This document shows positions 20,149-38,724 of a stretch of DNA of 64,000 bases, in pieces. A program made the position numbers and the translations under genes. Source of the stretch: Flavobacteriales bacterium. Its GTDB lineage: Bacteria; Bacteroidota; Bacteroidia; Flavobacteriales_F; PHOS-HE28. The stretch spans positions 2,895,497-2,959,496 of the forward strand of contig CP129489.1 in the NCBI GenBank assembly GCA_030584065.1. The letters run 5' to 3'. The notes under the pieces were generated by a model. It was given only the letters and a program-made list of their open reading frames with translations. It was not told the DNA's origin and searched no databases. Each line of letters opens with the position of its first letter. The stretch's first letter is position 1.

Positions 20149-20172
20149 CTGCTCATCAGCGTCCGCTGCGGC

Positions 20173-20718: not shown

Positions 20719-20774
20719 GTTCTGTTGGTTGTTTCGGTTCGTGATGCCGGGCGCATGCGGCCCGATGGTTCGGT

Positions 20775-21362: not shown

Positions 21363-21412
21363 AGGGTATAATCAGGTTCATTGCAACGGTATTGGCGAGG
21401 CATGCCTCGCCG

Positions 21413-22288: not shown

Positions 22289-22303
22289 GGCGATGGGTTG
22301 GGT

Positions 22304-23026: not shown

Positions 23027-23066
23027 GGCGGCTTCGCCTAGGTGAATGGGATCAACCTTGATGGCG

Positions 23067-23074
23067 CAAATATA
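23067..23074 (-). promoter_or_regulatory. -7 box TATATTTG of the pirin operon
   Basis: The minus strand reads TATATTTG, an exact TAnnTTTG match, 40 bases before the pirin ATG at 23026. The box overlaps the palindrome 23068-23091. No -33 TTG is seen at the standard spacing. Confidence 0.6.
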
Positions 23075-23091
23075 TTCCATGGAAAATATTT
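23068..23091. promoter_or_regulatory. Near-perfect 24-bp palindrome, candidate operator
   Basis: The bases AAATATATTCCATGGAAAATATTT form a 24-bp palindrome broken only by one mirrored A/T position; the inner TTCCATGGAA is perfect. It covers the -7 box of the pirin operon and lies in the divergent gap before the CoA-transferase gene, where a dimeric repressor could block transcription. It is strikingly AT-rich against its surroundings. No regulator gene is adjacent. Confidence 0.55.
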
Positions 23092-23204
23092 CGGCGCGAC
23101 TCCCTCGCCAAAAAGCCTGAATGGCCGGTTCGGTACCCGGGCACGCCTCGGGATTGTTGCTGGTGGCCCTATGGCCTTGCCGCCCTGGGCCCGACCTTCG
23201 TGGC

Positions 23205-24497
23205 ATGTCCCTCCCCTGGATGTCCGCCTCTGAGGCCGTGCGCTTGGTGAACAACGGCGACCGCGTCTTCATCCACGGCAGCGCCGCCACCCCCGTGCGC
23301 CTGGTGCATGCCCTGTTGGACCGCCATGCCGAGCTGCACGATGTGGAGCTCACCGCCATCAGCACCTTCGGCGACCTCGGCTTCGACCGCCCCGAGGTAC
23401 AGGGACCCTTCTACCTGAACGCGCTCTTCGTCAGCGCCAACATGCGCAGCACGGTGGATGGGCCTTACGGCGATTACGTGCCCGTCTTCCTGAGCGAGAT
23501 TCCCCGCCTCTTCGAGAAGGGCATCCTGCCGCTCGACGTGGCATTGGTGCATGTGTCGCCGCCCGATCGCCACGGCTTCTGCTCCCTGGGCGTGAGCGTG
23601 GACGTGGCGCGCAGCGCCATGCGCAACGCCCGCACCGTGATCGCGCAGGTGAACCCGAACATGCCCCGCACCCTCGGCGACGGCCATGTGCACATCAGCC
23701 GCTTCGCCGCGTTGGTGGAGGTGAACGACTCGCTGCCCGAGGTGGACTATGCCGCGCAGATCGGCCCCAAAGAGCGCCGCGTGGCGGAGCTCGTGAGCGC
23801 CTTGGTGGAGGATGGCAGCACCTTGCAGCTGGGCATCGGCGCCATCCCCGACGCCATCCTGGGCGCATTGGGCGGCCACAAGGACCTGGGCATCCACACC
23901 GAGATGTGCTCCAACGGCATCATCGACCTGGTGCGCAGCGGCGTGGTCACCAACAAGTTCAAGAAGAAGCACCGCGGCAAGGTGGCCACCGCCTTCGCCT
24001 TCGGCATGCGCCGCCTCTACGACCTGGTGGACGACAACCCCTTCTTCACCTTCCTCGACGCGCAGTACGTGAACGATACCAAGGTGATCCGCGAGAACCC
24101 CAAGGTGGTGGCCGTCAATAGCGCCATCGAGGTGGACCTCACCGGCCAGGTGTGCGCGGACAGCATCGGCACCTACCAGTTCAGCGGCGTGGGCGGGCAG
24201 ATGGACTTCATGCGCGGGGCGGCGTTGAGCGAGGGCGGCAAGCCCATCATCGCCCTGTGCAGCACCACCGGCAAGGGCGCCAGCAAGATCGTGCCCTTCC
24301 TGAAGCAGGGCGCCGGCGTGGTCACCACCCGGGCCCACGTGCACTACGTGGTCACCGAGCACGGTGTGGCCTACCTCTACGGCAAGAACCTGCAGCAGCG
24401 CGCCAAAGCGCTGATCGGCATCGCGGCGCCGGAGCATCGGGAAGGTCTGGAGAAAGCGTATCGGGAGCGGTTCGAGCGGCACGGGATGCACCAGTGA
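23205..24497 (+). CDS. Acetyl-CoA hydrolase / 4-hydroxybutyrate CoA-transferase family protein
   Basis: A 430-residue class-I CoA-transferase-type enzyme. It shows IHGSAATPVRLVHAL at residues 23-37, VALVHVSPPDRHGFCSLG, LQLGIGAIPDAIL, the catalytic glutamate Glu233 in GIHTEMCSNGI, and FSGVGGQMDFMRGA. Members transfer CoA between acetyl-CoA and organic acids such as 4-hydroxybutyrate or succinate, or hydrolyse acetyl-CoA; the choice cannot be made from sequence. ATG 23205 was chosen over upstream Mets since the first 28 codons of the longer frame look non-coding and GACCTTCG lies 4 bases before it. It is divergent from the pirin operon and lies upstream of dxs. Confidence 0.88.
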   Translation: MSLPWMSASEAVRLVNNGDRVFIHGSAATPVRLVHALLDRHAELHDVELTAISTFGDLGFDRPEVQGPFYLNALFVSANMRSTVDGPYGDYVPVFLSEIPRLFEKGILPLDVALVHVSPPDRHGFCSLGVSVDVARSAMRNARTVIAQVNPNMPRTLGDGHVHISRFAALVEVNDSLPEVDYAAQIGPKERRVAELVSALVEDGSTLQLGIGAIPDAILGALGGHKDLGIHTEMCSNGIIDLVRSGVVTNKFKKKHRGKVATAFAFGMRRLYDLVDDNPFFTFLDAQYVNDTKVIRENPKVVAVNSAIEVDLTGQVCADSIGTYQFSGVGGQMDFMRGAALSEGGKPIIALCSTTGKGASKIVPFLKQGAGVVTTRAHVHYVVTEHGVAYLYGKNLQQRAKALIGIAAPEHREGLEKAYRERFERHGMHQ

Positions 24498-24635
24498 CCG
24501 CTGCTGGCCTTGCTGTTGTGTCCCTTACACAAGGAGTCCAGGTCGTCCCTCGGGCGATGCTCACACGTGCGAAGGCCGTAATTCCAACTCTGGTCAGGCG
24601 TTCGAGCTCCAGCTCCCCCCGAACTTTCAGCCGGT

Positions 24636-24643
24636 TACCTTTG
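24636..24643 (+). promoter_or_regulatory. -7 box TACCTTTG of dxs
   Basis: Exact TAnnTTTG match, 30 bases before the dxs ATG at 24674. The 176-base gap between the CoA-transferase stop and dxs holds no gene. No -33 TTG was found at the normal distance. Confidence 0.55.
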
Positions 24644-24673
24644 TTCCATCTGCTGTCACCAGACCGCCCAGCC

Positions 24674-26614
24674 ATGTCCACCCCCTCGTACCCGCTTCTG
24701 GAGCGCATCCAGTTCCCAGCCGACCTGCGCGCCCTTCCCGAGGAGCAACTGCAGCAGGTGTGCACCGAGCTGCGCGACTTCATCATCGACGTGGTGAGCG
24801 TGAAGGGCGGCCACTTCGGCGCCAGCCTGGGCGTGGTGGAACTGACCGTGGCGCTGCACTACGTGTTCAATACGCCCTACGACCAGCTGGTGTGGGACGT
24901 GGGGCACCAGGCCTACGGGCACAAGATCCTCACCGGCCGGCGCGAGGTGTTCCACACCAATCGCATCTACAAGGGCCTCAGCGGCTTCCCCAAGCGCAGC
25001 GAAAGCGAGTACGACACGTTCGGCGTGGGGCACAGCAGCACCAGCATCGGCGGTGCGCTGGGCATGGCCGTGGCCAGCAAGCTGAAGGGTGAGAAGGACC
25101 GCCAGATGGTGGCCGTGATCGGCGATGGGGCCATGACCGCCGGACAGGCCTTCGAGGCGCTGAACCACGCGGGTGGTGCGGGCACCGACATGCTGGTGGT
25201 CCTGAACGACAACTGCATGAGCATCGACCCGAACGTCGGTGCGCTGAAGGAGTACCTCACGGACATCACCACCAGCCACACCTACAACAAGGTGAAGGAC
25301 GAGGTGTGGAACCTGCTCGGCAAGATGAGCAAGTTCGGTCCGAACGCGCAGAGCATCGTGCAGAAGGTGGAGAACGCCGTGAAGAGCGCGCTGCTGAAGC
25401 AGAGCAACCTGTTCGAGAGCCTCAACTTCCGCTACTTCGGTCCGGTGGACGGCCACGATGTGGACCACTTGGTGAAGGTGATGCGCGACCTGCGCGACAT
25501 CCCCGGCCCGAAGATCCTGCACACGATCACCAAGAAGGGCAAGGGCTACGCACCGGCAGAGGCGGGCAGTCCCACGGTGTGGCACGCGCCGGGCCTCTTC
25601 AACAAGGAGACCGGCGAGATCATCAAGGTGGTGCCCAAGAGCCCGCAGCCGCCCAAGTACCAGGACGTGTTCGGCCACAGCATCGTGGAACTGGCCGAGA
25701 AGAACCCGAAGATCGTGGGCGTCACGCCGGCCATGCCCACCGGCTGTTCATTGAACATCATGATGAAGGCCATGCCCGACCGCGCCTTCGACGTGGGCAT
25801 TGCCGAGCAGCACGCGGTGACCTTCAGCGCAGGCATGGCCACGCAGGGTATGGTGCCCTTCTGCAACATCTACAGCTCCTTCATGCAGCGCGCCTACGAC
25901 CAGGTGGTGCACGATGTGGCGCTGCAGAACCTGAACGTGGTGTTCTGCCTGGACCGCGGCGGCCTGGCCGGTGCCGACGGCCCGACGCACCACGGCAACT
26001 TCGATCTCGCCTACTTCCGCTGCATCCCCAACATGGTGGTGAGCGCCCCGATGAACGAGGAGGAGCTGCGCGACCTGATGTACACGGCCCAGCTGCCGGA
26101 CATGGGACCCTTCAGCATCCGTTACCCGCGCGGCGAGGGCGTGATGACCGAGTGGAAGACGCCCTTCAAGGCCATCAAGGTGGGCACCGGCCGCAAGCTG
26201 CGCTCCGGCACGGACATCGCGGTGCTCTCCATAGGCCACATCGGCAACCTGGCCGCCAAGGGCATCGACGCCCTGGAGGCCGAAGGCTACAGCGTGGCGC
26301 ATTACGACATGCGCTTCGTGAAGCCGATCGACGAGCTGCTGCTGCACGAGGTCTTCAGCAAGTTCAAGCACGTGATCACCGTGGAGGACCACGCCCTGCA
26401 CGGCGGCATGGGCAGCGCGGTGCTCGAGTTCATGGGCGACCATGGCTATGCCGCCCACGTGAAGCGCCTCGCCATCCCCGACAAGTTCATCGAGCACGGC
26501 ACGCAACCCGAGCTGTACCGGGAGTGTGGGATCGATGATGTGGCGGTGGTGGAGGCGGTGAAGGAGATGCTGGGGGAGAAGGGCGTGAAGAAGGGGGTGC
26601 GGGTGAGCGCGTAG
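24674..26614 (+). CDS. dxs: 1-deoxy-D-xylulose-5-phosphate synthase
   Basis: A 646-residue thiamine-diphosphate enzyme that condenses pyruvate and glyceraldehyde 3-phosphate, the first step of the MEP isoprenoid pathway. Signatures: VKGGHFGASLGVVELTVALHY, VWDVGHQAYGHKILTG, the ThDP/Mg motif AVIGDGAMTAGQAFEALNHA, LNDNCMSIDPNVG, KKGKGYAPAE, and the pyrimidine-domain VGIAEQHAVTFSAGMA with the catalytic Glu. The start MSTPSYPLLERIQF follows an exact -7 box. Oddly, a second diverged copy of its last 55 codons lies at 33905-34075, beyond the island, so the present 3' end may have come with that insertion. Confidence 0.97.
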   Translation: MSTPSYPLLERIQFPADLRALPEEQLQQVCTELRDFIIDVVSVKGGHFGASLGVVELTVALHYVFNTPYDQLVWDVGHQAYGHKILTGRREVFHTNRIYKGLSGFPKRSESEYDTFGVGHSSTSIGGALGMAVASKLKGEKDRQMVAVIGDGAMTAGQAFEALNHAGGAGTDMLVVLNDNCMSIDPNVGALKEYLTDITTSHTYNKVKDEVWNLLGKMSKFGPNAQSIVQKVENAVKSALLKQSNLFESLNFRYFGPVDGHDVDHLVKVMRDLRDIPGPKILHTITKKGKGYAPAEAGSPTVWHAPGLFNKETGEIIKVVPKSPQPPKYQDVFGHSIVELAEKNPKIVGVTPAMPTGCSLNIMMKAMPDRAFDVGIAEQHAVTFSAGMATQGMVPFCNIYSSFMQRAYDQVVHDVALQNLNVVFCLDRGGLAGADGPTHHGNFDLAYFRCIPNMVVSAPMNEEELRDLMYTAQLPDMGPFSIRYPRGEGVMTEWKTPFKAIKVGTGRKLRSGTDIAVLSIGHIGNLAAKGIDALEAEGYSVAHYDMRFVKPIDELLLHEVFSKFKHVITVEDHALHGGMGSAVLEFMGDHGYAAHVKRLAIPDKFIEHGTQPELYRECGIDDVAVVEAVKEMLGEKGVKKGVRVSA

Positions 26615-26634
26615 GGCGAAGCCAGTCGCGTTTA

Positions 26635-27588
26635 TCATTCCTTCTTCACTGTTAAAAGCTGACCTAATTTTTTGAAGTTCAGTCCGTCTTGGGCGGCCCG
26701 TACAGAGCCATACCCATCTGGACTAAGAGACCACTTGTACAGGGCTTCCCTGTACTCGTATTCCATCTTGGCCAGGCTCACCCCTCGCCTGAAGTTGAAT
26801 ACTGAAGCAGGAGGTGTTGATCCTGCTGTTCGATGGAACTTCTCGAAGCGGCGCCTTGCATAGCCGAAGGGGTCCTTGTCCTTGTTGATCAAAGCATGCT
26901 GCAGGAGAATAGCGATCTTCTCAAGGTCCCGATAGTTGCCCGACAGGGGCAGGCTGTCGAGCCAAATGTTGAAAGCTGAATCATCAGCTGGGATCGACTG
27001 CTTGAACAGCATGTTCTCCCAGACAGTGGTGAAGGCAGCAGAGGGCTTCACCCCTTGCTCTTGTAGCGAAGGGAGATAGATTGAGAGTTGATTGATCCGG
27101 TCGAAGAAATCCGGCAGGAGCAGTTGCTCAAGCTCTTCGATGCTCCGGTTCGACGCAAAGACCGGTTGGAAGCGCACGAACTCTTCTCGAGTATCGGGTC
27201 CGACCTTACGGAACCGATACCACCCTGGCGAGCCTTTATGCTCTACTGTTTGTAGTGCGGTCATCAGCTTCTCTTGCACGCGCTTGTTGAGATTATGTAT
27301 CTCGTCAAAGAAGAGCATGCGTGTTCGCTGTGCAGCATGGAAGACCCCGGACTTTTCCGTGTCCGCTCCAGTGAACGCCCCTTTCATGTGACCAAATAGC
27401 TCGCTGAGCGCCATGGTGTCTCCTTCGACACTTGCGCAGTTGAAGTAGGTGGGAGGCGCTTCAAGGACCTTTCCACCGATTTCGTTGATCATCCTGGACT
27501 TCCCAATGCCTCGAGCACCGAGAACGAGGACTGAGAATCGGCCGGGGTTCTTGAAGAAGCTTTCGAGCTCCGTTTTGGCGCTGTCCAT
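26635..27588 (-). CDS. PspF-like minimal sigma-54 activator (bEBP), probable regulator of the divergent operon
   Basis: A 317-residue AAA+ protein of the bacterial enhancer-binding family. The AAA+ domain begins almost at once, with no receiver or sensor domain, as in PspF. Motifs: Walker A GARGIGKS (24-31, unusual for lacking the GTGKE form), the sigma-54 contact loop GAFTGA (70-75), Walker B LFFDE (92-96), the arginine-finger region FFDRINQLSIYLPSLQEQ (161-178) and sensor II LSGNYRDLEK (215-224). Residues 275-314 (REALYKWSL then YGSVRAAQDGLNFKKLGQL) are compatible with a degenerate Fis-type helix-turn-helix. It is visibly AT-richer than neighbouring core genes. It is divergent from the seven-gene operon and converges on dxs with a 20-base gap. 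What signal controls it is unknown. Confidence 0.85.
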   Translation of the reverse strand: MDSAKTELESFFKNPGRFSVLVLGARGIGKSRMINEIGGKVLEAPPTYFNCASVEGDTMALSELFGHMKGAFTGADTEKSGVFHAAQRTRMLFFDEIHNLNKRVQEKLMTALQTVEHKGSPGWYRFRKVGPDTREEFVRFQPVFASNRSIEELEQLLLPDFFDRINQLSIYLPSLQEQGVKPSAAFTTVWENMLFKQSIPADDSAFNIWLDSLPLSGNYRDLEKIAILLQHALINKDKDPFGYARRRFEKFHRTAGSTPPASVFNFRRGVSLAKMEYEYREALYKWSLSPDGYGSVRAAQDGLNFKKLGQLLTVKKE

Positions 27589-27593
27589 CGGTT

Positions 27594-27625
27594 ATGATAA
27601 TATCGCTATGCGATGATAATATCAT
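27594..27625. promoter_or_regulatory. Two tandem GATAATATC palindromes, candidate activator sites
   Basis: GATAATATC occurs at 27596-27604 and 27615-27623, 19 bp start to start; the second extends to the palindrome ATGATAATATCAT (27613-27625). They lie just upstream of the sigma-54 activator gene and about 100-135 bp upstream of the expected start of the divergent operon transcript, the usual place for enhancer sites. Autoregulation is also possible. Confidence 0.5.
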
Positions 27626-27704
27626 TCCATTGATTTTCCTGTAGACTGTATAATCGACTGGAATACAAGCTGATAGTCGCGTCGGATTGCTGGCCATGAA
27701 GCTA

Positions 27705-27719
27705 TGGCACGGAGTTGCA
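27705..27719 (+). promoter_or_regulatory. Sigma-54-like promoter, one base short of consensus spacing
   Basis: TGGCAC at 27705-27710 and TTGCA at 27715-27719 match the -24 and -12 elements. Between the invariant GG and GC there are 9 bases rather than 10, which normally weakens or abolishes sigma-54 promoters. It lies 30 bases before the first operon ATG and faces it. The call is tentative. Confidence 0.35.
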
Positions 27720-27749
27720 CGAAAGGGGTTACCACAAGTTACCGAGTCC

Positions 27750-28043
27750 ATGCAACCCCGCATCATCGTCCCCAGCCTGCACGCCGTGCAACGAGCCTAC
27801 GAGCGTGGCATCACCACACCCATGATCCAGGACACACTCCGGTGGGGAAGAAAGCTACATCGCCAAGGCATGCGGTTCCATGTCATGCTTAGACGATGCA
27901 TCCCGCCTGGCCTTGATGAGCGCTATGCGAAGCGCTTGGTGAACGTGACCGTGGTGATCGCCATGGATGAGACCATCGTAACCGTGTACCGCAACCCCAA
28001 GGCTCTCTATCGCATCAAGCGCAAAAGCAAGAGACTCCTATGA
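27750..28043 (+). CDS. DUF4258-like small protein
   Basis: A 97-residue protein starting MQPRIIVPSLHAVQRAYERGI. The order of a His followed by a basic helix (HAVQRAYERGITTPMIQDTL), then strands (RFHVMLRRC, LVNVTVVIAMDETIVTVYRN) fits the DUF4258 fold, related to RelE/BrnT-type small RNases; the activity of DUF4258 proteins is unknown. An in-frame Met lies 21 codons upstream, but 27750 places the domain at the N-terminus. Its stop overlaps the glycosyltransferase start (ATGA at 28040), so it is the first gene of the operon. No partner antitoxin is evident. Confidence 0.7.
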   Translation: MQPRIIVPSLHAVQRAYERGITTPMIQDTLRWGRKLHRQGMRFHVMLRRCIPPGLDERYAKRLVNVTVVIAMDETIVTVYRNPKALYRIKRKSKRLL

Positions 28044-29320
28044 AGATCCTCAAGATCATCCACGGCTATCCGCCCCTGTACAGCGCAGGATCGGAGGTAT
28101 ACAGCCAGAGCATCTGTGACGAGCTGGCCAAGCGGCACAAGGTGCTCGTCTTCACCCGGGAAGAGAACCCCTTCGCGCCGGACTTCTCTGTACGGCAGGC
28201 ATCGAACGGGACGGGGCCCGAACGCATCCTGGTGAACATACCACGCGGCAAGGACGGCTATCGGCACGCCGAGTTGGATAATCGCTTCACTGAGGTATTG
28301 CACCGGTTCCGACCGGATGTCGCGCACATCGGCCACCTGAACCATTTGTCCACCGGCATCGTGGATGTACTCAGGGGGGCAGGCATCCCCATCGTATTCA
28401 CCCTGCACGACTTCTGGCTGATGTGCCCGCGCGGGCAGTTCCTGCACCGCAATTTCGGAGGTGGTGTGGTGCATGCCCTGTGCGAAGGCCAGGAAGACCG
28501 CAAGTGTGCCACAGCATGCTACACCTCGCTGATGTCCGGCGCAGAGGGAGCGAATGAGCAGGATGTTGCCTATTGGACATCGTGGATAGCCCGGCGCATG
28601 AGCGAGACCAGGGAGATCCGCGATCACGTGGACCTGTTCATCGCTCCTTCCAAGTATCTCCGGAACCGCTTCATCAGCGACTTTGGCCTTCCGGCAGGCA
28701 AGGTCGTGCAACTCGACTATGGCTTCCCGCTGCACTACCTGACGCCATCGAAGGATCGCGTTCCATCAGCGCGGTATCGCTTCGGGTACATCGGTACGCA
28801 CATCCCCGCCAAAGGGGTGAACCTGCTGATTGAAGCGTTCGATGGGCTGGGTGAAGTGGCCGAGTTGCACATCTGGGGCGCCAAGGACGAGCAGAGCACC
28901 CGCGCCTTGAGGAGCATGTCCGAAGCACGGTCTGGCATCCACTTCCATGGGCCCTATGTCAACCACAATCTGGCCAACGAGGTCTTCTCGCAGGTGGATT
29001 GCATCGTGGTGCCATCGATCTGGATGGAGAATTCGCCGCTGGTGATCCACGAGGCCCAAGCCTGCCATATCCCGGTAATCACGGCGAATGCCGGTGGAAT
29101 GGCCGAGTATGTGGCGCACCAGGTGAACGGCCTCCTTTTCGAGCATCGATCGGCAGAAAGCCTGCGCGATCGGATACACTGGGCCATCGACCACCCGGAC
29201 AGGATGGAGCACTTTGGCCGACGCGGCTACCTCCATGCGGCCGATGGCGCAATACCAGGCATCGTGGAGCATTGCAAGTCCCTAGAAGACATCTACGCCC
29301 AATTGATCAAGACCCCATGA
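28040..29320 (+). CDS. Family 4 glycosyltransferase (GT-B fold)
   Basis: A 426-residue enzyme predicted to transfer a sugar from a nucleotide-sugar donor. The N-terminal Rossmann half starts MKILKIIHGYPPLYSAGSEVY, the glycine-containing acceptor loop typical of GT4, with PDVAHIGHLNHLSTG following. The C-terminal donor half has FGYIGTHIPAKGVNLLIEAF, LHIWGAKD, VVPSIWMENSPLVIHEAQAC (the E-x7-E-like region) and ANAGGMAEYV. A cysteine-rich insertion (CEGQEDRKCATAC, near residues 150-162) resembles those in some GT4 enzymes acting at surface glycans. It overlaps its upstream neighbour by 4 bases and its downstream neighbour by 4 bases. The sugar and acceptor are unknown. Confidence 0.88.
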   Translation: MKILKIIHGYPPLYSAGSEVYSQSICDELAKRHKVLVFTREENPFAPDFSVRQASNGTGPERILVNIPRGKDGYRHAELDNRFTEVLHRFRPDVAHIGHLNHLSTGIVDVLRGAGIPIVFTLHDFWLMCPRGQFLHRNFGGGVVHALCEGQEDRKCATACYTSLMSGAEGANEQDVAYWTSWIARRMSETREIRDHVDLFIAPSKYLRNRFISDFGLPAGKVVQLDYGFPLHYLTPSKDRVPSARYRFGYIGTHIPAKGVNLLIEAFDGLGEVAELHIWGAKDEQSTRALRSMSEARSGIHFHGPYVNHNLANEVFSQVDCIVVPSIWMENSPLVIHEAQACHIPVITANAGGMAEYVAHQVNGLLFEHRSAESLRDRIHWAIDHPDRMEHFGRRGYLHAADGAIPGIVEHCKSLEDIYAQLIKTP

Positions 29321-30339
29321 GCACATTCTGGCGCATCACCCTGGACACCAATCCAGAGGACTGCAATCTGAGCTGTACCATGTGCGAGGAGCACAGCGAG
29401 CACAGCGACTTCATGAAGCGCCTGTATGAGCGCACCGGCATCAAGCGGCGCCGCATGCCGTTCGACATGGTCCGCAAGGTGATGGAGGAAGCCGCTGCGA
29501 TGGGCGTGCGCGAGATCATTCCTTCAACCATGGGAGAGCCGCTGCTGTACCGCCAATTCGATGAGCTGCTCGAACTCGCGGCCCAGTTGGGCATGAAGGT
29601 GAACCTGACGACCAACGGCACATTCCCCAAGCGAACCGTCGAGGACTGGGCGGCGCGCATCGTCCCGGTCACATCGGATGTGAAGATCTCTTGGAACGGG
29701 GCGACCAAGTCCACGGCCGAGTCGGTGATGAAGGGCCTCAAGTTCGAACAGGCCGTCTCGAACGCGGAGCGCTTCATCAGGGTGCGCGATGCGCATCATG
29801 CAGTGAGTGGGCATTACTGCCGCGTGACCTTCCAACTCACGTTCATGCAGAACAACATGCACGAGCTACCGGAAATCATCCGGCTCGCTGCCAAGCTTGG
29901 GGTGGACCGCGTGAAGGGTCACCATCTGTGGGCCCATTTCGAGGAGATCGAGCAGCTGAGCTTCAAGAACTCACCCGAGGCCATTGAACGCTGGAACCAC
30001 ATCGTGGACCAGGCCGTGGTCACTGCCGCAGCATATCCGAGGCCTGATGGAACACCGGTCCAGCTGGAGAACATCACTCTCTTGGCGCCACAGAGCGGCC
30101 ATGAGGTTCCCCATGATCACATGTGCCCCTTTCTTGGCAAGGAGCTCTGGGTGTCCGCCACGGGTGATATCTCCCCCTGCTGCGCGCCCGATGATCTCCG
30201 TCGGTCGTTGGGAGACTTCGGGAACGTGAACGAGCGGAGTCTTTCCGAAGTGGTGGCCGATGGGGCATACCAAGGGCTGATGCGCGACTACCGCGACCGG
30301 CCGCTTTGTCGCACCTGCAACATGAGGAAGCCATGCTGA
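29317..30339 (+). CDS. Radical SAM protein with SPASM-type C-terminus
   Basis: A 340-residue radical SAM enzyme. The [4Fe-4S] motif CX3CX2C is at Cys16, Cys20 and Cys23 (EDCNLSCTMC), unusually close to the N-terminus, with the family's PSTMGEPLLY and KVNLTTNGTFP strands following. The C-terminal region holds more cysteines: HMCPFLGKELWVSATGDISPCC and PLCRTCNMRKPC, the layout of SPASM/twitch auxiliary cluster domains. Such enzymes commonly modify peptides or carbohydrates by radical chemistry. Starts at an ATGA overlap with the glycosyltransferase; the kinase-like gene starts 7 bases before its end. No short precursor peptide gene was found beside it. Confidence 0.88.
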   Translation: MSTFWRITLDTNPEDCNLSCTMCEEHSEHSDFMKRLYERTGIKRRRMPFDMVRKVMEEAAAMGVREIIPSTMGEPLLYRQFDELLELAAQLGMKVNLTTNGTFPKRTVEDWAARIVPVTSDVKISWNGATKSTAESVMKGLKFEQAVSNAERFIRVRDAHHAVSGHYCRVTFQLTFMQNNMHELPEIIRLAAKLGVDRVKGHHLWAHFEEIEQLSFKNSPEAIERWNHIVDQAVVTAAAYPRPDGTPVQLENITLLAPQSGHEVPHDHMCPFLGKELWVSATGDISPCCAPDDLRRSLGDFGNVNERSLSEVVADGAYQGLMRDYRDRPLCRTCNMRKPC

Positions 30340-30857
30340 AGGTGCTGCTATTCGGTAATCTCGGTTCCGGCAAAAGCCACCTGGCCGAACGATCGCTTCA
30401 TCGGTTCCCGGCATTTGAGCTGGTGTCCATCGATGTCTACCGCAGGAAGTACGGCGATGGCACCCAAGAGGCCGAGCGCTTGGCCAAGGAGCAATTCCTC
30501 CATGGTGTCGTGCAAGGCAGGCAGCAACTGATCGAAGCCACCGGACTTGGCGAAACGGGCCTGCTCCTCGCGGAGCGATTGGAAACGTTCGGCGAACCCC
30601 TGCTTGTCGTGCTGTTGACCACACCCTTGAGCGTATGTCTTGCAAGGCTATCGGAACGCAAGTGGGAGGTTCCTTACCCGGCACCACCCGAACAGGCCTT
30701 CGACCTGGCGCGAAGGACCGATGAATTGATCCGCGCCGGGGAAGTGGAGGCGATCTGGTCCTTACTACCCGGATCCATCATCATCAAGGGCGATTGCTCC
30801 GATAACAGATCCATGAACGAACTGTTGGAACGAATGGCAATTCAACTCACCACATGA
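30333..30857 (+). CDS. P-loop kinase-like protein
   Basis: A 174-residue protein with a Walker A motif at the N-terminus (FGNLGSGKSHLAERS) and ELVSIDVYRRKYGDG, a pattern of small-molecule kinases (gluconate/shikimate/zeta-toxin-like fold). The LID-like Arg region ARLSERKWEVPYPAPPEQ and the C-terminal strand SIIIKGDC support this. The phosphate acceptor is unknown. The start MLKVLLFG (30333) was chosen over an in-frame Met at 30306, because it directly precedes the Rossmann-type strand; it overlaps the radical SAM stop by 7 bases. Its end overlaps the next gene by 4 bases (ATGA). Confidence 0.75.
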   Translation: MLKVLLFGNLGSGKSHLAERSLHRFPAFELVSIDVYRRKYGDGTQEAERLAKEQFLHGVVQGRQQLIEATGLGETGLLLAERLETFGEPLLVVLLTTPLSVCLARLSERKWEVPYPAPPEQAFDLARRTDELIRAGEVEAIWSLLPGSIIIKGDCSDNRSMNELLERMAIQLTT

Positions 30858-32266
30858 AGCAGCATCAGATCATCAAAGCAGTGCAACATACTATCGCCGA
30901 CATGGAAGGCCTGGATGCCGCAGTGCTCTATGGATCCTTTGCCCGAGGCGATGCAACCCCGAACTCGGACATCGATCTGGGCCTGCTCGTGAACGACCGT
31001 TTCCGGCAGGAGGATCTCATCACAACCCTGAAGGACGTGCGGCCCTCACCGGACCATGTCATGCCGGTAGCCATGCGAGGCAAGGTGGTCGCCTGGTTCC
31101 ACGGCATGCACGTCAAACTGGAAATGGCCATCCATCGGGACCTAGCCACCTTCGGGCGGGACCTGGCGGGGTCGGCGATCCCTGAAGAGCGGCTGCCGGG
31201 CGCCATTTTGTTGGACCGTACGGGGAACGTGCTGGATGGTGCCCGAGCGGTGCAGCAGGTGGGATACCGTCCGCATACCATCGATGAGTTGGTGCAGATG
31301 TTCATCTATGAGTTCGACAACCTGTCCACGTTCCATCGCAGGAGCGACGGATACCGCGCACTCTATTTCCACCAGATCGCACTGCATTGCCTGGTACAGC
31401 TCATGAACATGCGGGCCAACGGCGATTGCTTCCAGTTCCTGCCCAGAAACTTGTTGGTGAACATCACGGACAGGGATCGGAGGAGGCGCATCTACGAGCT
31501 CAATGGCTCCATGTACCTCCCCGATATGGACAGGAAGAAGCGGGCGCTACTGGACATGTTCCACAACACCCTCAGCGAATTGGCCTATCCCTTCGCGGAA
31601 GAGGTACGCGAAGTCCTGGAACTGATGTACGAAAGGGATCGGTACTGGAACCTGCGGGCCGTAGGTACCCATTCCCCCTTGGTCCGATGGCCGAACCTGT
31701 TGCGAAGCAGCTTGCCTGCGCTCATGGAACCGGAAAAGTTGAAGGAGCTGCTCGACAGGAACACCATTCACACCATCATCGATCTGCGCGCACCCCAGGA
31801 ACTGGAAGAGCACGCATACTCCGATGAAGCGCTGAGCAAGGTCCACTATGTGCATGCCCCATTCGACCCGTGGGCGCAACCCGATTGGTTCAAGGAACCC
31901 GCCTATCAGCAGGGTGGCAACCAGGAGATTGCCTATCGCTTCTTCGCGCTGGGGTGCCGGGAGAGCATCAAGGCGGTCGTCGACGCGCTGCGCAGAGTGC
32001 CTGAAGGACAGGGAGCGTTGATCCATTGCCATGCCGGCAAGGACAGGACCGGCATTGTGTGCACATTGCTCCATCTCTTGTCCGGGGCAGACAGGGAAGT
32101 AGTGTTGGTCGATTACCTCGCCAGCGAGTCCGACACGTACGCCCATAACCTGGAGATCGTGCTCCAGATCATTGAGCGCGAAGGAGGCATTCGGGGATAC
32201 TTGATCAACTGCGGCGTTGCCGACCACGAGATCGCGGACCTTCAACAACGATTGATCCATGGCTGA
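30854..32266 (+). CDS. Nucleotidyltransferase - tyrosine-phosphatase fusion
   Basis: A 470-residue two-domain protein. The N-terminal half is a polymerase-beta-like (MNT/aminoglycoside-type) nucleotidyltransferase: LYGSFARGDATPNSDIDLGLL with GS at 27-28 and Asp39 and Asp41 as metal ligands, followed by a helical region with FLPRNLLVNI. The C-terminal part (from about residue 280) is an atypical protein-tyrosine-phosphatase fold: LLRSSLPALM, TIIDLRAPQELEEH, and the P-loop HCHAGKDRTG with Cys392 and Arg398. It resembles the Y_phosphatase3 group, which also removes phosphate from phosphoinositides. Adding and removing phosphate-linked groups in one protein fits a small-molecule pathway. It overlaps neighbours on both sides. 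Substrates are unknown. Confidence 0.85.
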   Translation: MKQHQIIKAVQHTIADMEGLDAAVLYGSFARGDATPNSDIDLGLLVNDRFRQEDLITTLKDVRPSPDHVMPVAMRGKVVAWFHGMHVKLEMAIHRDLATFGRDLAGSAIPEERLPGAILLDRTGNVLDGARAVQQVGYRPHTIDELVQMFIYEFDNLSTFHRRSDGYRALYFHQIALHCLVQLMNMRANGDCFQFLPRNLLVNITDRDRRRRIYELNGSMYLPDMDRKKRALLDMFHNTLSELAYPFAEEVREVLELMYERDRYWNLRAVGTHSPLVRWPNLLRSSLPALMEPEKLKELLDRNTIHTIIDLRAPQELEEHAYSDEALSKVHYVHAPFDPWAQPDWFKEPAYQQGGNQEIAYRFFALGCRESIKAVVDALRRVPEGQGALIHCHAGKDRTGIVCTLLHLLSGADREVVLVDYLASESDTYAHNLEIVLQIIEREGGIRGYLINCGVADHEIADLQQRLIHG

Positions 32267-33212
32267 ACGACTTGAGCACCTCTTCACCGGATACTGGAAG
32301 TACCTCGCTGTCAGGGCGGCGTGCAAACTGGACCTCTTCGATCACATCGCTTCGGGCATGCGGAATGTGGCGGACCTCACTTCGGTCATCAACGCAGATG
32401 CACGTGCTTTGGATAACCTCATCGGGGCACTTGTGCATGAAGGCTACTTGCGCCGATCGGATATCGGGCTCGGTCTATCACCAGAGGCTGAGCGGCTATG
32501 TGCTGACCATCCTGAAAGTGCGAAGCATGCCTGCCTGCTGTGGGGCGCCGAGCACATGGATGCCTGGCAGCAGCTTGACGTCAGCATCCGCTCGGGACAG
32601 GCCGTTTTTCCCATACTCTATGGTGCTCCTTTCTTCTGCTACTTGGACGGTCTTCCGGATCGCGCCGTCGAGTACCATAAAGCCATGTTCGCATATGCCT
32701 CACAGGACTATAAGGGAATAGCTGATGTCCTGGACCTGTCCCAATACCGATCGGTCATGGACGTGGGAGGCGGCAATGGGGCGCTGATCGGCTCCTTGCG
32801 AGCAGCATATCCGGAAGTCACCTTCCGCATCTTCGATATCCAAGACCACCGTACCGAAGGCACCCGCGATGTGGCGTTCCTCCAAGGCGACTTCTTCAAG
32901 GGTGTTCCGGAAGGCTCCGATGCCTTGCTCCTGAGCAGGGTCATCCATGATTGGAATGATGCCGAAGCCATGGCGATCCTTGGGAATTGCCACGCAGCAC
33001 TCCCCCCACATGGAGCCCTCCATCTCATCGAGAACGATCTGTCCCTCTTGGGGGATGGAGGACATCTGCTATCGATGAACATGCTTGCCGTTTGCGGAAG
33101 CCGGGAGCGTTCCGTGAAGGAATACGAGCAGCTCCTGGAGCGTTCAGGATTCCTGGTCCTGGACCATGTACATCACGGAAAGCAGGCCATCATCAAAGCG
33201 CAACGATCATGA
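32259..33212 (+). CDS. SAM-dependent O-methyltransferase (COMT-like)
   Basis: A 317-residue class-I methyltransferase with a plant-COMT-like layout. Residues 1 to about 95 form a winged-helix dimerisation domain (LAVRAACKLDLFDHIA, NLIGALVHEGYLRR). The catalytic domain carries the SAM-binding motif VMDVGGGNGALIGSL (166-180), FRIFDI, and LLSRVIHDWNDAEAM with the His-Asp pair common in COMT enzymes; HLIENDLSLLGDGGHL is the post-IV motif. These enzymes methylate hydroxyl groups of small molecules such as polyketides and phenols. It starts 8 bases inside the previous gene and ends in an ATGA overlap with the WG-repeat gene. Confidence 0.88.
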   Translation: MAERLEHLFTGYWKYLAVRAACKLDLFDHIASGMRNVADLTSVINADARALDNLIGALVHEGYLRRSDIGLGLSPEAERLCADHPESAKHACLLWGAEHMDAWQQLDVSIRSGQAVFPILYGAPFFCYLDGLPDRAVEYHKAMFAYASQDYKGIADVLDLSQYRSVMDVGGGNGALIGSLRAAYPEVTFRIFDIQDHRTEGTRDVAFLQGDFFKGVPEGSDALLLSRVIHDWNDAEAMAILGNCHAALPPHGALHLIENDLSLLGDGGHLLSMNMLAVCGSRERSVKEYEQLLERSGFLVLDHVHHGKQAIIKAQRS

Positions 33213-33904
33213 ACTGGCGTGATATTAAGCCATCATTGGACGGATCACACTTCCTGCTCGAGGGGAAGCCCCTATGGAGGGATCGCTTCACAGCCGTGAT
33301 GTCGTTCCATGCACCGGGCGTGGCCCCGGTTCAGGATGCATCCGGATGGTACCACATCGATGCTAATGGGCATCCATTGTACACCGCCCGCTTCCAGAAA
33401 GCCTTTGGGTTTTATTTCGCAAGGGCCGCTGTAATGGATCCAGAGGGTTGGTTCCACATCGACCTGAGCGGCAAGGCTTGCTATCCTGAGCGATACCCGT
33501 GGTGCGGCAACTATCAGGAGGGCGTCTGTTCGGTACGCTCCAAGGAAGGCTATTTCCACATCGACTCCAAAGGGCGACCGATTTATGCGGCACGGTTCGA
33601 TTACGCTGGTGATGCCAGGGATGGGATTATTTGCGCAGTAGAGAATAGTGAGGCTTTCCACATCCGGTTCGATGGCAGCCGCCTTTATGCGCACACCTAC
33701 CGCTTTGTGAACGTATACCACAAGGGCTTTGCGTTGGCTTTGGACGAGAAGGGCTGGTTCCATATCGACCGGTCTGGTCGCCCCTTAGCCGCGCACCGGT
33801 TCCCCTACCTGGAACCCTTTTACAATGGGGTCGCTTTTGCGATCGACCAGGAGGGCAATCCCGTTGCCGTATCCGAAGCGGGGTTGGTCACTCGTCTGAG
33901 TTGA
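33209..33904 (+). CDS. WG-repeat protein
   Basis: A 231-residue protein made of about five WG-type beta repeats of roughly 40-45 residues: GWYHIDANGHPLYTARF, GWFHIDLSGKACYPERY, GYFHIDSKGRPIYAARF, AFHIRFDGSRLYAHTYRF and GWFHIDRSGRPLAAHRF. WG-repeat proteins are beta-solenoid or propeller-like, often with unknown roles. No signal peptide, so probably cytoplasmic. It is the last gene of the operon, overlapping the methyltransferase by ATGA. Its stop lies one base before an out-of-place dxs 3' end; the coding frame continues into dxs-like sequence beyond the stop, so the terminus may mark the recombination joint. It could be the modified substrate or a scaffold; this is unresolved. Confidence 0.85.
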   Translation: MNWRDIKPSLDGSHFLLEGKPLWRDRFTAVMSFHAPGVAPVQDASGWYHIDANGHPLYTARFQKAFGFYFARAAVMDPEGWFHIDLSGKACYPERYPWCGNYQEGVCSVRSKEGYFHIDSKGRPIYAARFDYAGDARDGIICAVENSEAFHIRFDGSRLYAHTYRFVNVYHKGFALALDEKGWFHIDRSGRPLAAHRFPYLEPFYNGVAFAIDQEGNPVAVSEAGLVTRLS

Positions 33905-34075
33905 TACTTCACGGCCCACGTGAAGCGCCTCGCCATTCCCGACCGCTTCCTCGAGCACGGCACGCAACCGGAGCTGTACCGAGAATGCGGCATCGATGAT
34001 ATCGCGGTGGTGGAGGCGGTGAAGGAGATGTTGGGTGAGAAGCGAGCCGTGAATGGCATCAAGGCTTCGGCTTGA
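33905..34075 (+). pseudogene. Displaced second copy of the dxs 3' end
   Basis: Codons following the WG-repeat stop encode AHVKRLAIPDRFLEHGTQPE and LYRECGIDDIAVVEAVKEML, matching the dxs C-terminus. From 33914 the DNA agrees with 26453-26581 at about 115 of 129 positions by hand count. Of eleven changed codons, most are silent, so both copies were shaped by protein-level selection. The fragment has no start and stops at 34073-34075. Its end overlaps the convergent membrane-protein gene by 17 bases. It marks the right edge of the island. Confidence 0.9.
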
Positions 34076-35432
34076 GGGCCTCGCTGGCATCGTAACGCAC
34101 ATCCGTCTCCCGCACCACCAGCGTATCGCCGTCGTAGGTGACCACCGCTTGGCTCAGGTCTTCGCGCACCAAGGCCACATCCGCAGCACCCCGGCCGCTG
34201 AGCTGGAGCGCCTCCGGGAACCCATGGCGGAAGATGTAAGCGCCCCGGTGATCACCCGGCAGATTAAGGACGAGCAGTCTCCCTCCCCGCGGTGGCTCAG
34301 GTGTGTCTGCGATGATGCGCTCTATGGTATCGGAAGCGGTGCGCCAATGCCCCAGGCCCTGTCGCAAGAGCAGTGACCATGATGCCACCAGCATCACGAG
34401 GGCCATCCGCCATACCGCCTTCGACCGCATACCCTCCATCGCCAGCGCGACCAGCACACACAGGAATGCCGAGGGCATAAATAGGAAACGGTCGCTCTCG
34501 CTCGTGCGCGTGCTCACACCACCCACCATGGCGATGATGGAGGCGATCCCGTAGAGCGATGCCACCAGCGCAGCAGCGCGCAGGCGCTCCGGATGGAACC
34601 GGTTCGAGCGCCAGAACCAGAGCCCGACGAGCGTAAGCGCAAGGCCGAGCAGCGCGAAGCGCACGGTCTGCACCGCGGGGTCGTCATGCGGCGGCAGGAA
34701 GGAGCGCCCGATGACCTTGAAGGCCGCGCTGAGGTAATCGCCCACCGGCTTGACGAAGAAGGCCGCACCATAGTCATTCGCCAGGCCGCCAAGCACCATC
34801 CAGCGCAACGCGAGGTTCAGCACGACCACCGCGATTGATGCGAGCAACATCGCGCGCCAGGCCTTCGCGTCCGTGGGCCGAAGGATGAGCCACCACGCGC
34901 CGAGCAGCAGGGGCGCCAGCAGCGCGCTCTCATAGCACAGTGAGCCGAGCAGCACCAACAATGCAACCGCGATGGTGCGCTTGGTGGTTGGCGCGTTGCC
35001 GGTTGCCACGACCAAGGCCCCCAGCGTGAATGCCGACGCCATGGAAATGCCGCGCCCGATGATCCAGGCCTGCGGCTCGAGGTGGAAGGGGTACAGCACG
35101 AAGAACAGACCTGCACCAAGTGCTGCATCGCTGGTGAGCAGCCGCCTGGCCAGTGAGTAGACCAGCCAGCCATTGAGACCCAGGAGGGCCAGGTTCACCA
35201 CGCGGAAGGCCCACGGATCCGGGCCGGACAGCAGCAGGTTCGCCCTAAGTGATAGGTCGGCCAGCGGCCGGAAGAAGCTGCTGCCCTCGCCGGATCGGAT
35301 GCGCCAGAGCACCTGGAAATCGTCGCTGAAGAAGGTGCAGGAGAGGATGGATGCATGTACTCCGATGCTGACGGCCACCAGCAAGAGCAGCACGGCCCAT
35401 GACGGAATCGAACGCTCGCCGCGCGCATCCAT
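34059..35432 (-). CDS. GT-C-like polytopic membrane protein
   Basis: A 457-residue protein with about nine to eleven hydrophobic segments. The first loop has TFFSDDFQVLW, where acidic residues after helix one mark many GT-C glycosyltransferases that use lipid-linked sugars at the outer face of the membrane. A short soluble C-terminal domain (LLVLNLPGDHRGAYIF onward) follows. The start at 35432 is followed directly by the first helix; TACCTTGG lies 7 bases before it on the minus strand. It overlaps the displaced dxs end by 17 bases and is divergent from the 35467 gene. Specific function unknown; surface glycan or protein glycosylation is plausible. Confidence 0.75.
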   Translation of the reverse strand: MDARGERSIPSWAVLLLLVAVSIGVHASILSCTFFSDDFQVLWRIRSGEGSSFFRPLADLSLRANLLLSGPDPWAFRVVNLALLGLNGWLVYSLARRLLTSDAALGAGLFFVLYPFHLEPQAWIIGRGISMASAFTLGALVVATGNAPTTKRTIAVALLVLLGSLCYESALLAPLLLGAWWLILRPTDAKAWRAMLLASIAVVVLNLALRWMVLGGLANDYGAAFFVKPVGDYLSAAFKVIGRSFLPPHDDPAVQTVRFALLGLALTLVGLWFWRSNRFHPERLRAAALVASLYGIASIIAMVGGVSTRTSESDRFLFMPSAFLCVLVALAMEGMRSKAVWRMALVMLVASWSLLLRQGLGHWRTASDTIERIIADTPEPPRGGRLLVLNLPGDHRGAYIFRHGFPEALQLSGRGAADVALVREDLSQAVVTYDGDTLVVRETDVRYDASEALKPKP

Positions 35433-35439
35433 GATGCGA

Positions 35440-35462
35440 CCAAGGTAGCCGCGCTATGTTCG
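35440..35462. promoter_or_regulatory. Back-to-back promoter elements between two divergent membrane-protein genes
   Basis: Minus-strand TACCTTGG (35440-35447) precedes the ATG at 35432 by 7 bases, and plus-strand TATGTTCG (35455-35462) precedes the ATG at 35467 by 4 bases. Each is close to TAnnTTTG. The very short distances predict leaderless or nearly leaderless transcripts. Confidence 0.5.
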
Positions 35463-35466
35463 TGCG

Positions 35467-36909
35467 ATGCCACGCCGCCATCTGCTCATCCTGCTACTCG
35501 CCTTCGCGGTGAGCGTGGTCGTACGCTGGCCCTTGCTCAACCGCCCGCTCAGCGGCCACCACGAGCTCTGCACCGCACTGGTGCTCATCGCGCTGCACAG
35601 CTGGCACCACGATGGCTTCCTCCCCCACCACGGCGCGCCGGCCATCACCTTCACCGGCCCCGCCGACCTGATCCCGCCCGGTTACACCGATGCTCCCGCA
35701 CTGCACGATGGCGTGCTCTACTACCTCTCGCATCCGCCGCTCGCCTTCGACCTGCCGCATGCGCTGTTCGCCATCACGGGCACCGAGCCCAATGCTCTGG
35801 GCTTGCAGCTCTTCAATCTGTTCTTCCACCTGCTCACGGCCATCGGCCTGTACCTCGTCGTGCGCGAGTTGCAGCGCGATGGACCGGCGCCGCTCTTCGC
35901 CGCGCTGCTCTACGTCTTCATGCCCGCGCCGCTCTGGTTCCACGGCAATGCCTACATGAGCGACATGTTCGTCCAGAACGCATGGGTCTGGCACGTGCTC
36001 GTCGCCTTGCGTGCCTTGACGAGAACCGATGGCGTCCCTTGGCGCATGGCGGTGTTGTGCGCGTTGACGCTTTTCCTCACCACGCTCATCAGCTGGCCGG
36101 GTGTGTGGGCGGGCGTTGCATTGGGCATGATCGCTATTGTGCAATGGCACCAGCAGCGCGATGCCACGCGATTGCGATTGTTGGCTTCGGCGTTTGCCGG
36201 TGTCGGCCTCGCGCTGGCATTCACCGCTTGGCGCTGGCTGCAGGTGGTGGATGTCGATGCCCTGCTCGCCTACTTCAGCGGTCGCTACGCCGAGCGTGGA
36301 ACCGGCAGCGAGCATGGAGGCATGCTCCGCACGTTGTTGCTCAACTACCGCATCAGCTGGCTGCCGCTCCTGCTGCCCCTCGTGTCGCTGCTGCGGAAGC
36401 GCCATTCGGTCATCTCCCAGCGCAACGCACTGTGGCTCTTCGTGGTGCTCACGGCGCTGCCCGTGATCCTGGAGATGGCCTTCCTGCTTGAGTACACGGG
36501 CCACGACTTCGCCGCGCTCAAGGCCGGTCTGCTGCTCTGCGGGCTGGGCGGGCTGGGGCTGTCGGCCATGCGCGCTGGTTGGTCATGGGCTGCGCTGGCG
36601 GTGACGTGCGTTGCAGGCGTGCTCTACTTCTACCGCACCAATCCGCCCTCATCGAGGACGGACGAGCGATTCACCTGGCAGATGGAGCAAGGCCTCGCCA
36701 TCGCACGCGAAGCCAGGCCGGACGAGATGGTCTTCACCCTCGGCTTCACCCCGGAGCCGCAGGTGCGGTGGTACGCGAAGCGCACGCTCTTCCGGGTGGA
36801 TGATACACGGCACGCCCGGGAGCTCCTTCGGGCATCGGGCAACCCCAAGGGCATTCTCTTCCGCCAAGCCGCAGCAGGTCTCTCGCACGAGCGCATCAGG
36901 GCGGATTGA
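35467..36909 (+). CDS. GT-C-like polytopic membrane protein
   Basis: A 480-residue integral membrane protein. The N-terminal helix (LLILLLAFAVSVVVRW) is followed by a long loop with HHELCTALVLIALHSW and GVLYYLSHPPLAF, a layout seen in GT-C/dolichyl-mannosyltransferase-like proteins. About ten more helices follow and a soluble C-terminal domain of some 80 residues (LAIAREARPDEMVFTLGF). No named family was recognised. Its stop codon directly abuts that of the next gene on the other strand (36909/36910). Probable role in surface glycan assembly, by fold only. Confidence 0.75.
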   Translation: MPRRHLLILLLAFAVSVVVRWPLLNRPLSGHHELCTALVLIALHSWHHDGFLPHHGAPAITFTGPADLIPPGYTDAPALHDGVLYYLSHPPLAFDLPHALFAITGTEPNALGLQLFNLFFHLLTAIGLYLVVRELQRDGPAPLFAALLYVFMPAPLWFHGNAYMSDMFVQNAWVWHVLVALRALTRTDGVPWRMAVLCALTLFLTTLISWPGVWAGVALGMIAIVQWHQQRDATRLRLLASAFAGVGLALAFTAWRWLQVVDVDALLAYFSGRYAERGTGSEHGGMLRTLLLNYRISWLPLLLPLVSLLRKRHSVISQRNALWLFVVLTALPVILEMAFLLEYTGHDFAALKAGLLLCGLGGLGLSAMRAGWSWAALAVTCVAGVLYFYRTNPPSSRTDERFTWQMEQGLAIAREARPDEMVFTLGFTPEPQVRWYAKRTLFRVDDTRHARELLRASGNPKGILFRQAAAGLSHERIRAD

Positions 36910-38679: not shown

Positions 38680-38683
38680 GGGG

Positions 38684-38720
38684 CCAAGGTAGCCGGGCCA
38701 TCCGTGCGGCGATACCTTCG
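38684..38720. promoter_or_regulatory. Paired promoter elements between divergent genes
   Basis: Minus-strand TACCTTGG (38684-38691) lies 4 bases before the ATG at 38679, and plus-strand TACCTTCG (38713-38720) lies 4 bases before the ATG at 38725. Each differs from TAnnTTTG at one position. The equal short spacing again points to leaderless transcripts. Confidence 0.5.
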
Positions 38721-38724
38721 CCGC

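Follow-up and report, generated by a model that had tools for sequence, protein, structure and literature searches.

The window analysed here, a stretch of 64,000 nucleotides from contig CP129489.1 of a Flavobacteriales bacterium, contains an operon of seven genes on the plus strand (27750-33904) and a divergently oriented gene for an AAA+ protein (26635-27588; Table 1). An original prediction, made from the letters alone, had described these eight genes with overlaps of 4-8 bases between those of the operon, and both the positions and the overlaps were confirmed from the sequence. Four joints are 4-base ATGA overlaps, namely those between the DUF4258-like and the GT4 glycosyltransferase genes, between GT4 and the radical S-adenosylmethionine (SAM) gene, between the kinase and the nucleotidyltransferase (NTase)-phosphatase genes, and between the methyltransferase and the WG genes. 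The radical SAM and kinase genes overlap by 7 bases, the NTase-phosphatase and methyltransferase genes by 8 bases. The block from the AAA+ to the WG gene has a GC content of 57.6%, compared with 63.7-66.6% in 169 stretches of equal length elsewhere in the window. This low-GC island and the copies of the dxs 3′ end that flank it go beyond the original prediction.

Table 1 Features of the island, its dxs borders and one related locus. Positions refer to the window unless another locus is given.
Feature	Position	Strand	Remarks
dxs (1-deoxyxylulose-5-phosphate synthase), approximate start	24668..26614	+	98% protein identity to same-genus genome G009
dxs 3′ end, copy 1, inside the intact gene	26453..26589	+	starts with the 23-bp block GCCCACGTGAAGCGCCTCGCCAT
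AAA+ activator, RtcR/PspF1 type, GAFTGA intact	26635..27588	-	Pfam Sigma54_activat 84.3 bits (cut-off 20.2)
Intergenic stretch, AAA+ gene to operon	27589..27749	.	
Near-match sigma-54 -24/-12 element, TGGCAC-N4-TTGC, spacer one base short	27705..27718	+	32 bp before the first ATG
97-residue protein, weak DUF4258 match	27750..28043	+	Pfam 21.6 bits (cut-off 25)
GT4-family glycosyltransferase	28040..29320	+	Glycos_transf_1 95 bits; PHROG_21308 403.8 bits
Radical SAM enzyme, 340 residues	29317..30339	+	Radical_SAM 56.7 bits, SPASM 40.2 bits
P-loop kinase	30333..30857	+	AAA_33 31.1 bits (cut-off 27)
LinB-like nucleotidyltransferase (N-terminal) and PtpB-like phosphatase fusion	30854..32266	+	Polbeta 34.8 bits, Y_phosphatase3 107.2 bits
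COMT-type O-methyltransferase	32259..33212	+	Dimerisation and Methyltransf_2 (120.3 bits)
WG-repeat protein	33209..33904	+	WG_beta_rep 44.1 bits; five motifs, 34-residue spacing
dxs 3′ end, copy 2, far border of the island	33914..34053	+	87.9% identical over 140 positions
pVip and kinase of genome G208	L138 (G208 C30) 4647-6133		inside the cassette

The gene upstream of the island is presumably dxs, judging from its sequence. The left end of the island lies 20 bases past the stop codon of this gene. A second copy of the dxs tail follows directly downstream, so that the unit, with the AAA+ gene inside it, is an island of ~7.3 kb, and the first 23 bases (GCCCACGTGAAGCGCCTCGCCAT) are exactly common to both copies. 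The island thus appears to have been inserted into the 3′ end of dxs. Compared with G009 (genomes are given here by G numbers, loci by L numbers), the body of dxs shows 89-99% identity in steps of 150 bases, and the last step drops to 74%. This pattern resembles that of elements that enter the 3′ end of a gene and bring a replacement tail, as may have happened here. A weak test of which tail is native speaks partly against this. Of 15 sites at which the two tails differ, G009 shares 7 with the downstream copy and 5 with the intact gene. In the same weak test, G018 sides with the tail of the intact gene (9 versus 5), as does the downstream copy of G024 (11 versus 3). Integration into dxs by an encoded integrase was considered and rejected, with no recombinase match in the eight island genes by Pfam.

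Searching 34 same-genus relatives with the dxs tail, we found two further tail duplications. G024 has three dxs-tail copies on one contig (C1:2855668-2873548), the outer pair ~17.6 kb apart, and G008 has two copies ~0.9 kb apart (C49:179811-180875). With inserts of ~7.3, 17.6 and 0.9 kb in the window, G024 and G008, the 3′ ends of dxs have seemingly taken insertions repeatedly. In G752, the only other genome of the same species that we found, the corresponding DNA with dxs shows 99.99% identity along 7,759 bp, as far as the end of that contig. A second dxs-like stretch is present in G009 (C300:3476-4033), with 89% identity to residues 4-189 and one internal stop; the estimated contamination of this genome is 5%.

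The family assignments of the original prediction were supported by Pfam except for the DUF4258 match, which lies below the cut-off. The tyrosine-phosphatase-fold half of the fusion protein matches at residues 264-427. PHROG_21308, matched by the glycosyltransferase, is a phage family that covers both GT4 and radical SAM. Among the NCBIfam families listed for the eight island proteins none was matched at its curated cut-off, so that no island enzyme has a curated function there.

We determined how far these genes stay together by searching with a radical SAM profile (E ≤ 1e-60) in a class sample of 395 genomes from 196 genera and in a genus sample of 45 genomes; a search at the level of the order gave back these 45 genomes. 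The profile was positive in 14 of the 395 class genomes, representing 10 of the 196 genera, and in 6 of the 45 genomes of the genus. GT4 and WG genes share the locus with the radical SAM gene in all 14 positive class genomes. Pooling all search sources, GT4, radical SAM and WG occur together in 26/26 informative loci; in this count, one GT4 gene is cut by the contig start and another was matched only from residue 170. Locus counts leave out L047 and L151, which are cut by contig ends, and L210, which is the same locus as L046. G208 differs in having its WG gene on the far side of the AAA+ gene.

The other components are less constant. A phosphatase is present in 12 of the 14 class loci, always after the radical SAM gene; six have the tyrosine-phosphatase fold (five with an NTase domain) and six are homologous to the phosphatase of G571, which belongs to the Pfam histidine-phosphatase superfamily and has an unrelated fold. 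The swapping of unrelated phosphatase folds in one slot suggests a dephosphorylation step. The methyltransferase was found in 5/14 class loci and a divergent AAA+ gene in ten, in two of which it is cut by the contig end. Of 23 loci examined for it, 14 have GT4 and radical SAM fused in a single open frame; given this frequent fusion, the separate genes of the window most likely work as one functional unit. Carbamoyltransferase genes lie in the operons of G208 and G149, and one was recognised by eye in UBP6.

The original view of the genes as a unit with its divergent AAA+ gene is thus borne out for the core, which recurs together across loci, and for the regulator gene in the 10/14 class loci. 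As a conserved set of all seven genes it did not stand, since the kinase, the DUF4258-like protein, the NTase and the methyltransferase vary or are missing elsewhere. In the loci found, the homologues were not confined to separate contexts, and the operon did not match a known glycan or peptide-modification locus. The island is thus one version of a mobile cassette. We found its core described nowhere but in the Undecim Cluster of Wolbachia phage WO, and the version in the window also carries a regulator gene of the RtcR/PspF1 type and a phosphatase module.

Other searches delimited the distribution further. A search of the phylum with the single radical SAM sequence at E 1e-90 returned 2 of 395 genomes, the own genome among them, and a family search around G260 was positive in 6 of 87 genomes. 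Among the 80 loci listed from a scan of genome contigs with an NTase-phosphatase alignment, three (L046-L048) had more than one cassette gene by tblastn. No match was obtained in a near-identity search of the island against plasmids. SZAS-3 (G797) carries two differing cassettes (L211, L210), one with a histidine phosphatase and prophage-type genes, the other with an NTase-phosphatase and a serine recombinase. The cassettes L152, L153 and L154 (G023, G009 and G026) are short, consisting of GT4, radical SAM and WG with a kinase match of only 61 residues, which looks like a loss of the phosphatase and the methyltransferase.

In the phage collection, the radical SAM protein picked out two records of Wolbachia phage WO, and among plasmids it picked out three from Arsenophonus; two IMG/VR contigs also contain the cassette core. 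The phage WO gene is annotated as 'glycosyl transferase, group 1 / moaA/nifB/pqqE', which fits UC3 (WD0613). UC3 is a GT4-radical SAM fusion in the Undecim Cluster (WD0611-WD0621), according to its description (PMC9203015). Compared with MN180251, the window proteins are 47% (GT4), 50% (radical SAM) and 47% (WG) identical. The next gene in phage WO, UC4 by its position, encodes a WG domain above the WG_beta_rep cut-off and a methyltransferase-like region, in which Dimerisation (20.9 bits) and Methyltransf_2 (15.2 bits) both stay under the Pfam cut-offs. All three Arsenophonus plasmids have GT4 and radical SAM, and the one that was read also has WG and methyltransferase. On the Arsenophonus plasmid CP132908 (L144, 8216-10557), the GT4 and radical SAM regions are not one frame and no gene is annotated there.

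UC3 and UC4 are homologous to the GT4, radical SAM, WG and methyltransferase of the window and are phage-borne, whereas the original prediction knew of no described related locus. The GT4-radical SAM and WG-methyltransferase pairs are fused in phage WO and are separate adjacent genes in the window. Furthermore, PhyH (UC5), the epimerase (UC2), the threonine aldolases and the transporters have no counterpart among the island genes by Pfam, and queries with UC2 and UC5 found no match in window positions 20001-40000. Conversely, queries with the regulator, the phosphatase and the NTase found no match beside the phage WO core. The window shares the core of the Undecim Cluster yet is no member of it as defined. 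Outside this cluster, no description of the gene combination was found in the openly licensed literature, at the level of titles, abstract openings or passages. The cluster is reported to be highly expressed and to be shared with Rickettsia through lateral transfer; Cardinium and Phycorickettsia are reported to have homologues, and its functions are annotation-based predictions (PMC9203015).

These predictions bear on a first alternative, in which the locus serves surface glycans, GT4 and its partners modifying lipopolysaccharide (LPS), exopolysaccharide or another glycan and thereby changing phage receptors or host interaction. Membership of the GT4 family is compatible with this, a UC2-like epimerase is a neighbour in phage WO, Arsenophonus and UBP6, and UC1-UC3 and UC10 are assigned by the authors of the cluster to exopolysaccharide or LPS by homology (PMC9203015). 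However, the eight island genes have no flippase, polymerase, exporter or membrane-protein family match in Pfam, and the phosphatase, the LinB-like NTase and the COMT-type methyltransferase would better suit the tailoring of a small molecule. A surface-glycan role is unlikely in our judgement.

The radical SAM enzyme gives further indications of the chemistry. Its first cluster cysteine is at position 16, and the 15 residues ahead of it leave no room for an N-terminal RiPP recognition element (RRE; RiPP, ribosomally synthesised and post-translationally modified peptide). In the C-terminal part, the cysteines are Twitch-like, C270-X12-G-X4-C288 ... C331-X2-C334, and C270, C288, C289, C331 and C334 are the only cysteines after the core that are invariant in 70/70 sequences. 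The seven-cysteine SPASM motif for two auxiliary clusters, as defined in PMC6231123, is incomplete. Its overall fold is shared with BlsE (Z 23.1, tied best), DesII (22.3) and BtrN (17.5), the last also resembling it in having the cysteines for a single Twitch-type auxiliary site (PMC6231123). BtrN ranks 29 in the Foldseek list and 37 in the VIA list. Identity to these enzymes is only 16-19%, however, and SuiB and SkfB, which modify peptides, reach equal scores; of these, SkfB belongs to a RiPP pathway and is likewise of the Twitch type. The best structural match of the NTase half is LinB (E 1.8e-9, template modelling score 0.72 on the target), and the phosphatase half is structurally nearest PtpB. 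In contrast to LinB, the NTase of the window is fused to this PtpB-like phosphatase, and it reaches only 13-15 bits with the NCBIfam Lnu models, whose cut-offs are 450-525.

Membership of the SPASM/Twitch family and the presence of SuiB and SkfB among the nearest structures also fit a second alternative, namely that the radical SAM enzyme modifies a peptide or protein and that the ~100-residue product of the first gene, or the WG protein, is its substrate. The operon of the window starts with a small gene, as do those of several relatives, where other ~100-residue proteins fill this slot. These small proteins, however, fall into three sequence types, hhalign gave no support for homology among them or to that of the window, and none was found in several loci. 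Together with the lack of room for an RRE and the incomplete seven-cysteine motif, this argues against a RiPP, and the fusion of WG to a methyltransferase in phage WO fits an accessory domain better than a substrate. We consider this alternative improbable.

With respect to regulation, the AAA+ protein is matched best by RtcR_PspF1 among the PADLOC profiles (172.3 bits, profile positions 182-439 of 468). The alignment shows that the window protein starts at the AAA+ domain, without an N-terminal CARF region. Four relatives (G208, G233, G171 and G149) have an extra N-terminal region. The G208 protein, with 644 residues, reaches 233 bits over profile positions 84-454, a match that extends some way ahead of the AAA+ domain, into the part to which CARF is assigned by the name of the profile. 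The proteins of G233, G171 and G149 resemble it over residues 11-642, 11-642 and 13-641, and the Pfam model for the N-terminal region of RtcR gave only 14.8 bits for G208 and 14.2 bits for G233. Measured against the NCBIfam PspF models, the AAA+ protein of the window scored 60.1 and 45.9 bits versus cut-offs of 443.55 and 529.

The GAFTGA motif noted in the original prediction is present in the window protein and intact also in G233, G171, G149 and G350; G208 has GAYTGA. SZAS-3, G378 and G405 have altered forms of the motif and G313 and an IMG/VR contig lack it, so that this loop is altered or gone in 5 of 10 aligned relatives. The genome has an rpoN gene. A scan for sigma-54 promoters before the operon found no canonical -24/-12 site, the best score being 14/20 (p 0.95 of mononucleotide shuffles). 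The near-match element 32 bp before the first ATG was spotted by eye before the pattern search, which gave 1 match in 64 kb, with 0.5 expected. Among 19 scanned regions, only that of G350 has a canonical site, a near-perfect element (TGGCACGGTATTTGCC) 83 bases before GT4 whose score is reached by 0/300 shuffles. The L137 region has a similarly short-spaced palindrome (TGGCAAATATTTGCCA). Two exact TGATAATATC repeats lie near the start of the AAA+ gene (27595-27623, starts 19 bases apart) and are possibly operators. Sigma-54 control of the operon, as originally proposed, is thus plausible: the RtcR/PspF1 kind and the intact GAFTGA point to it, while the promoter scan, which gave no more than a near match, and the altered or lost loop in half of the aligned relatives do not.

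An RtcR-like CARF-AAA-HTH family outside the rtc system, often with restriction-modification genes, was reported by Makarova et al. 2014 (PMC4012209). The window resembles these activators in the AAA+ domain, the GAFTGA motif and the divergent orientation, and genes of restriction-modification type lie near several relatives. It differs from them in lacking the CARF region, in an operon that is not rtcBA and in the canonical -24/-12 site, which was not found.

Such a regulator brings in a third alternative, the repair or modification of RNA, in which kinase, phosphatase and NTase would heal RNA ends cut by nucleases of phage or host. Kinase, phosphatase and NTase are classical RNA end-healing activities, whereas GT4 and COMT-type methyltransferases have no known role in RNA end repair. 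RtcR itself controls RNA repair (PMC9650030). Yet no ligase, cyclase or RNA-binding family match is found in the island by Pfam, the NTase and phosphatase folds are nearest LinB and PtpB, and the kinase lies outside the conserved core. We hold RNA repair to be very improbable.

The distribution of the cassette points to transfer. Between the window and G009, the identity is 98% for Dxs and 84% for the radical SAM protein, the latter being 96% identical between G009 and G023. In G004, of the same genus, Dxs is 88% and radical SAM 57% identical to the window, and this radical SAM protein is 95% identical to those of G260 and G171 and 93% identical to that of G571, all from other families. The radical SAM gene and dxs lie on separate contigs in G009, G023, G026 and G004, whose assemblies are for the most part fragmented. 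The relatedness of the cassettes disagrees with that of the genomes, and the sparsely distributed cassette has likely spread horizontally.

Looking at the neighbouring genes by family search, we found DarT, DarG and a phage integrase at L137, viperin and its kinase at L138, a cytosine-type DNA methyltransferase and a serine recombinase at L046, and AbiLi/AbiLii at L168. L170 is accompanied by Lamassu LmuA/LmuB, a type I methyltransferase and two serine recombinases, and L171 by SIR2, type I specificity and methyltransferase genes and tyrosine and serine recombinases. DNA methyltransferases are near L140, a transposase near L173, and a serine recombinase with a DNA methylase near L209. Amidase_2 and a D12 methylase suggest a prophage at L211, and an endolysin and an integrase surround the cassette at L126/L141. 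A defence or mobile context is thus seen at 11 of 22 genome-collection loci, with the window counted for its dxs duplication; four more loci came from virus and plasmid collections and are mobile by selection. At L155 (G004 C3, 12107-12421), a frame of 104 residues resembles by eye the end of a tyrosine recombinase; it was left uncounted.

The G208 operon holds pVip (299.6 bits) and a kinase of the VakA/pVip-kinase type between the CARF-AAA gene and GT4. The radical SAM enzyme of the window is not itself a viperin, scoring 34.2 bits versus the NCBIfam cut-off of 180.

To quantify the association with defence genes, the flanks of 14 cassette loci were compared with 13 arbitrary stretches of cassette-carrying genomes using PADLOC (E ≤ 1e-40). 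The comparison leaves out L139, L153, L046-L048, L208-L211, the viral, plasmid and window loci, and open reading frames of <170 or >900 residues. Defence matches amounted to at least 9 of 101 proteins in the flanks and to 1 or 2 of 128 in the control stretches, which gives a Fisher p of 0.006 or 0.012. The flank count is a lower bound, made up of 8 members implied by 25 of 31 matching families plus DarT (E 2.6e-48); the control count is 1 or 2 because two PDC-S01 families have one member each, possibly the same protein. Counted by locus, the enrichment is not significant (Fisher p 0.16-0.65), a difference that arises because neighbouring defence genes are not independent.

These numbers are also what a fourth alternative can draw on, ordinary accessory metabolism that merely rides mobile elements and has no role in conflict. 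In the flanks read, 11 of the 22 genome-collection loci have no defence or mobile gene by family search, and the control at the level of loci is not significant; both points are compatible with this alternative. On the other hand, the adjacency to lysis genes and integrases, the occurrence in phage WO, the viperin of G208 and the RtcR/PspF1-type regulator would all have to be coincidence, and we regard this alternative as quite improbable.

Elsewhere in the window, long direct repeats of 72-75% identity at 43945-49907 (e.g. 46216-46975 with 48329-49088) are probably tandem paralogues, and an inverted repeat of 62 bases at 50625-50686 is 96.8% self-complementary. Two adjacent minus-strand genes at 21413-23365, which look pirin-like from their sequence, share ~78% DNA identity over ~550 bases.

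Weighing these alternatives, we give about an even chance to the explanation that the island encodes a small-molecule pathway that is shared horizontally and serves in defence or in conflict among microbes. A small molecule is favoured because the NTase half is nearest LinB, and because the radical SAM enzyme leaves no space for an RRE and carries the cysteines for one auxiliary site of the Twitch type. The predicted product is a glycosylated, radical-SAM-modified small molecule directed against phages or rival microbes, likely under the control of the RtcR/PspF1-type activator. In such a pathway, a stress or infection signal, sensed by the CARF-like region where present, would switch on transcription. 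GT4 would glycosylate an acceptor that is probably phosphorylated, the radical SAM enzyme would alter the sugar or the aglycone, for example by oxidation, and the phosphatase would take off the phosphate. Methyltransferase, LinB-like NTase and kinase might tailor or mask the product, and the WG protein may assist, probably together with the methyltransferase, its fusion partner in phage WO.

A more specific version, which we put forward tentatively and think doubtful as a whole, is inducible chemical immunity. A CARF/AAA+ sensor would then induce a GT4-radical-SAM glycoside that blocks phages as aminoglycosides do, sometimes stacked with viperin, and the Undecim Cluster of phage WO would be a descendant in insect endosymbionts.

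The island points to a kind of candidate defence whose weapon would be a small molecule under an RtcR-type switch, and the 3′ ends of dxs emerge as a place where insertions recur within one genus. The Undecim Cluster gains relatives in Bacteroidota that share its core, through which its chemistry could become testable outside obligate endosymbionts, such as in laboratory E. coli.

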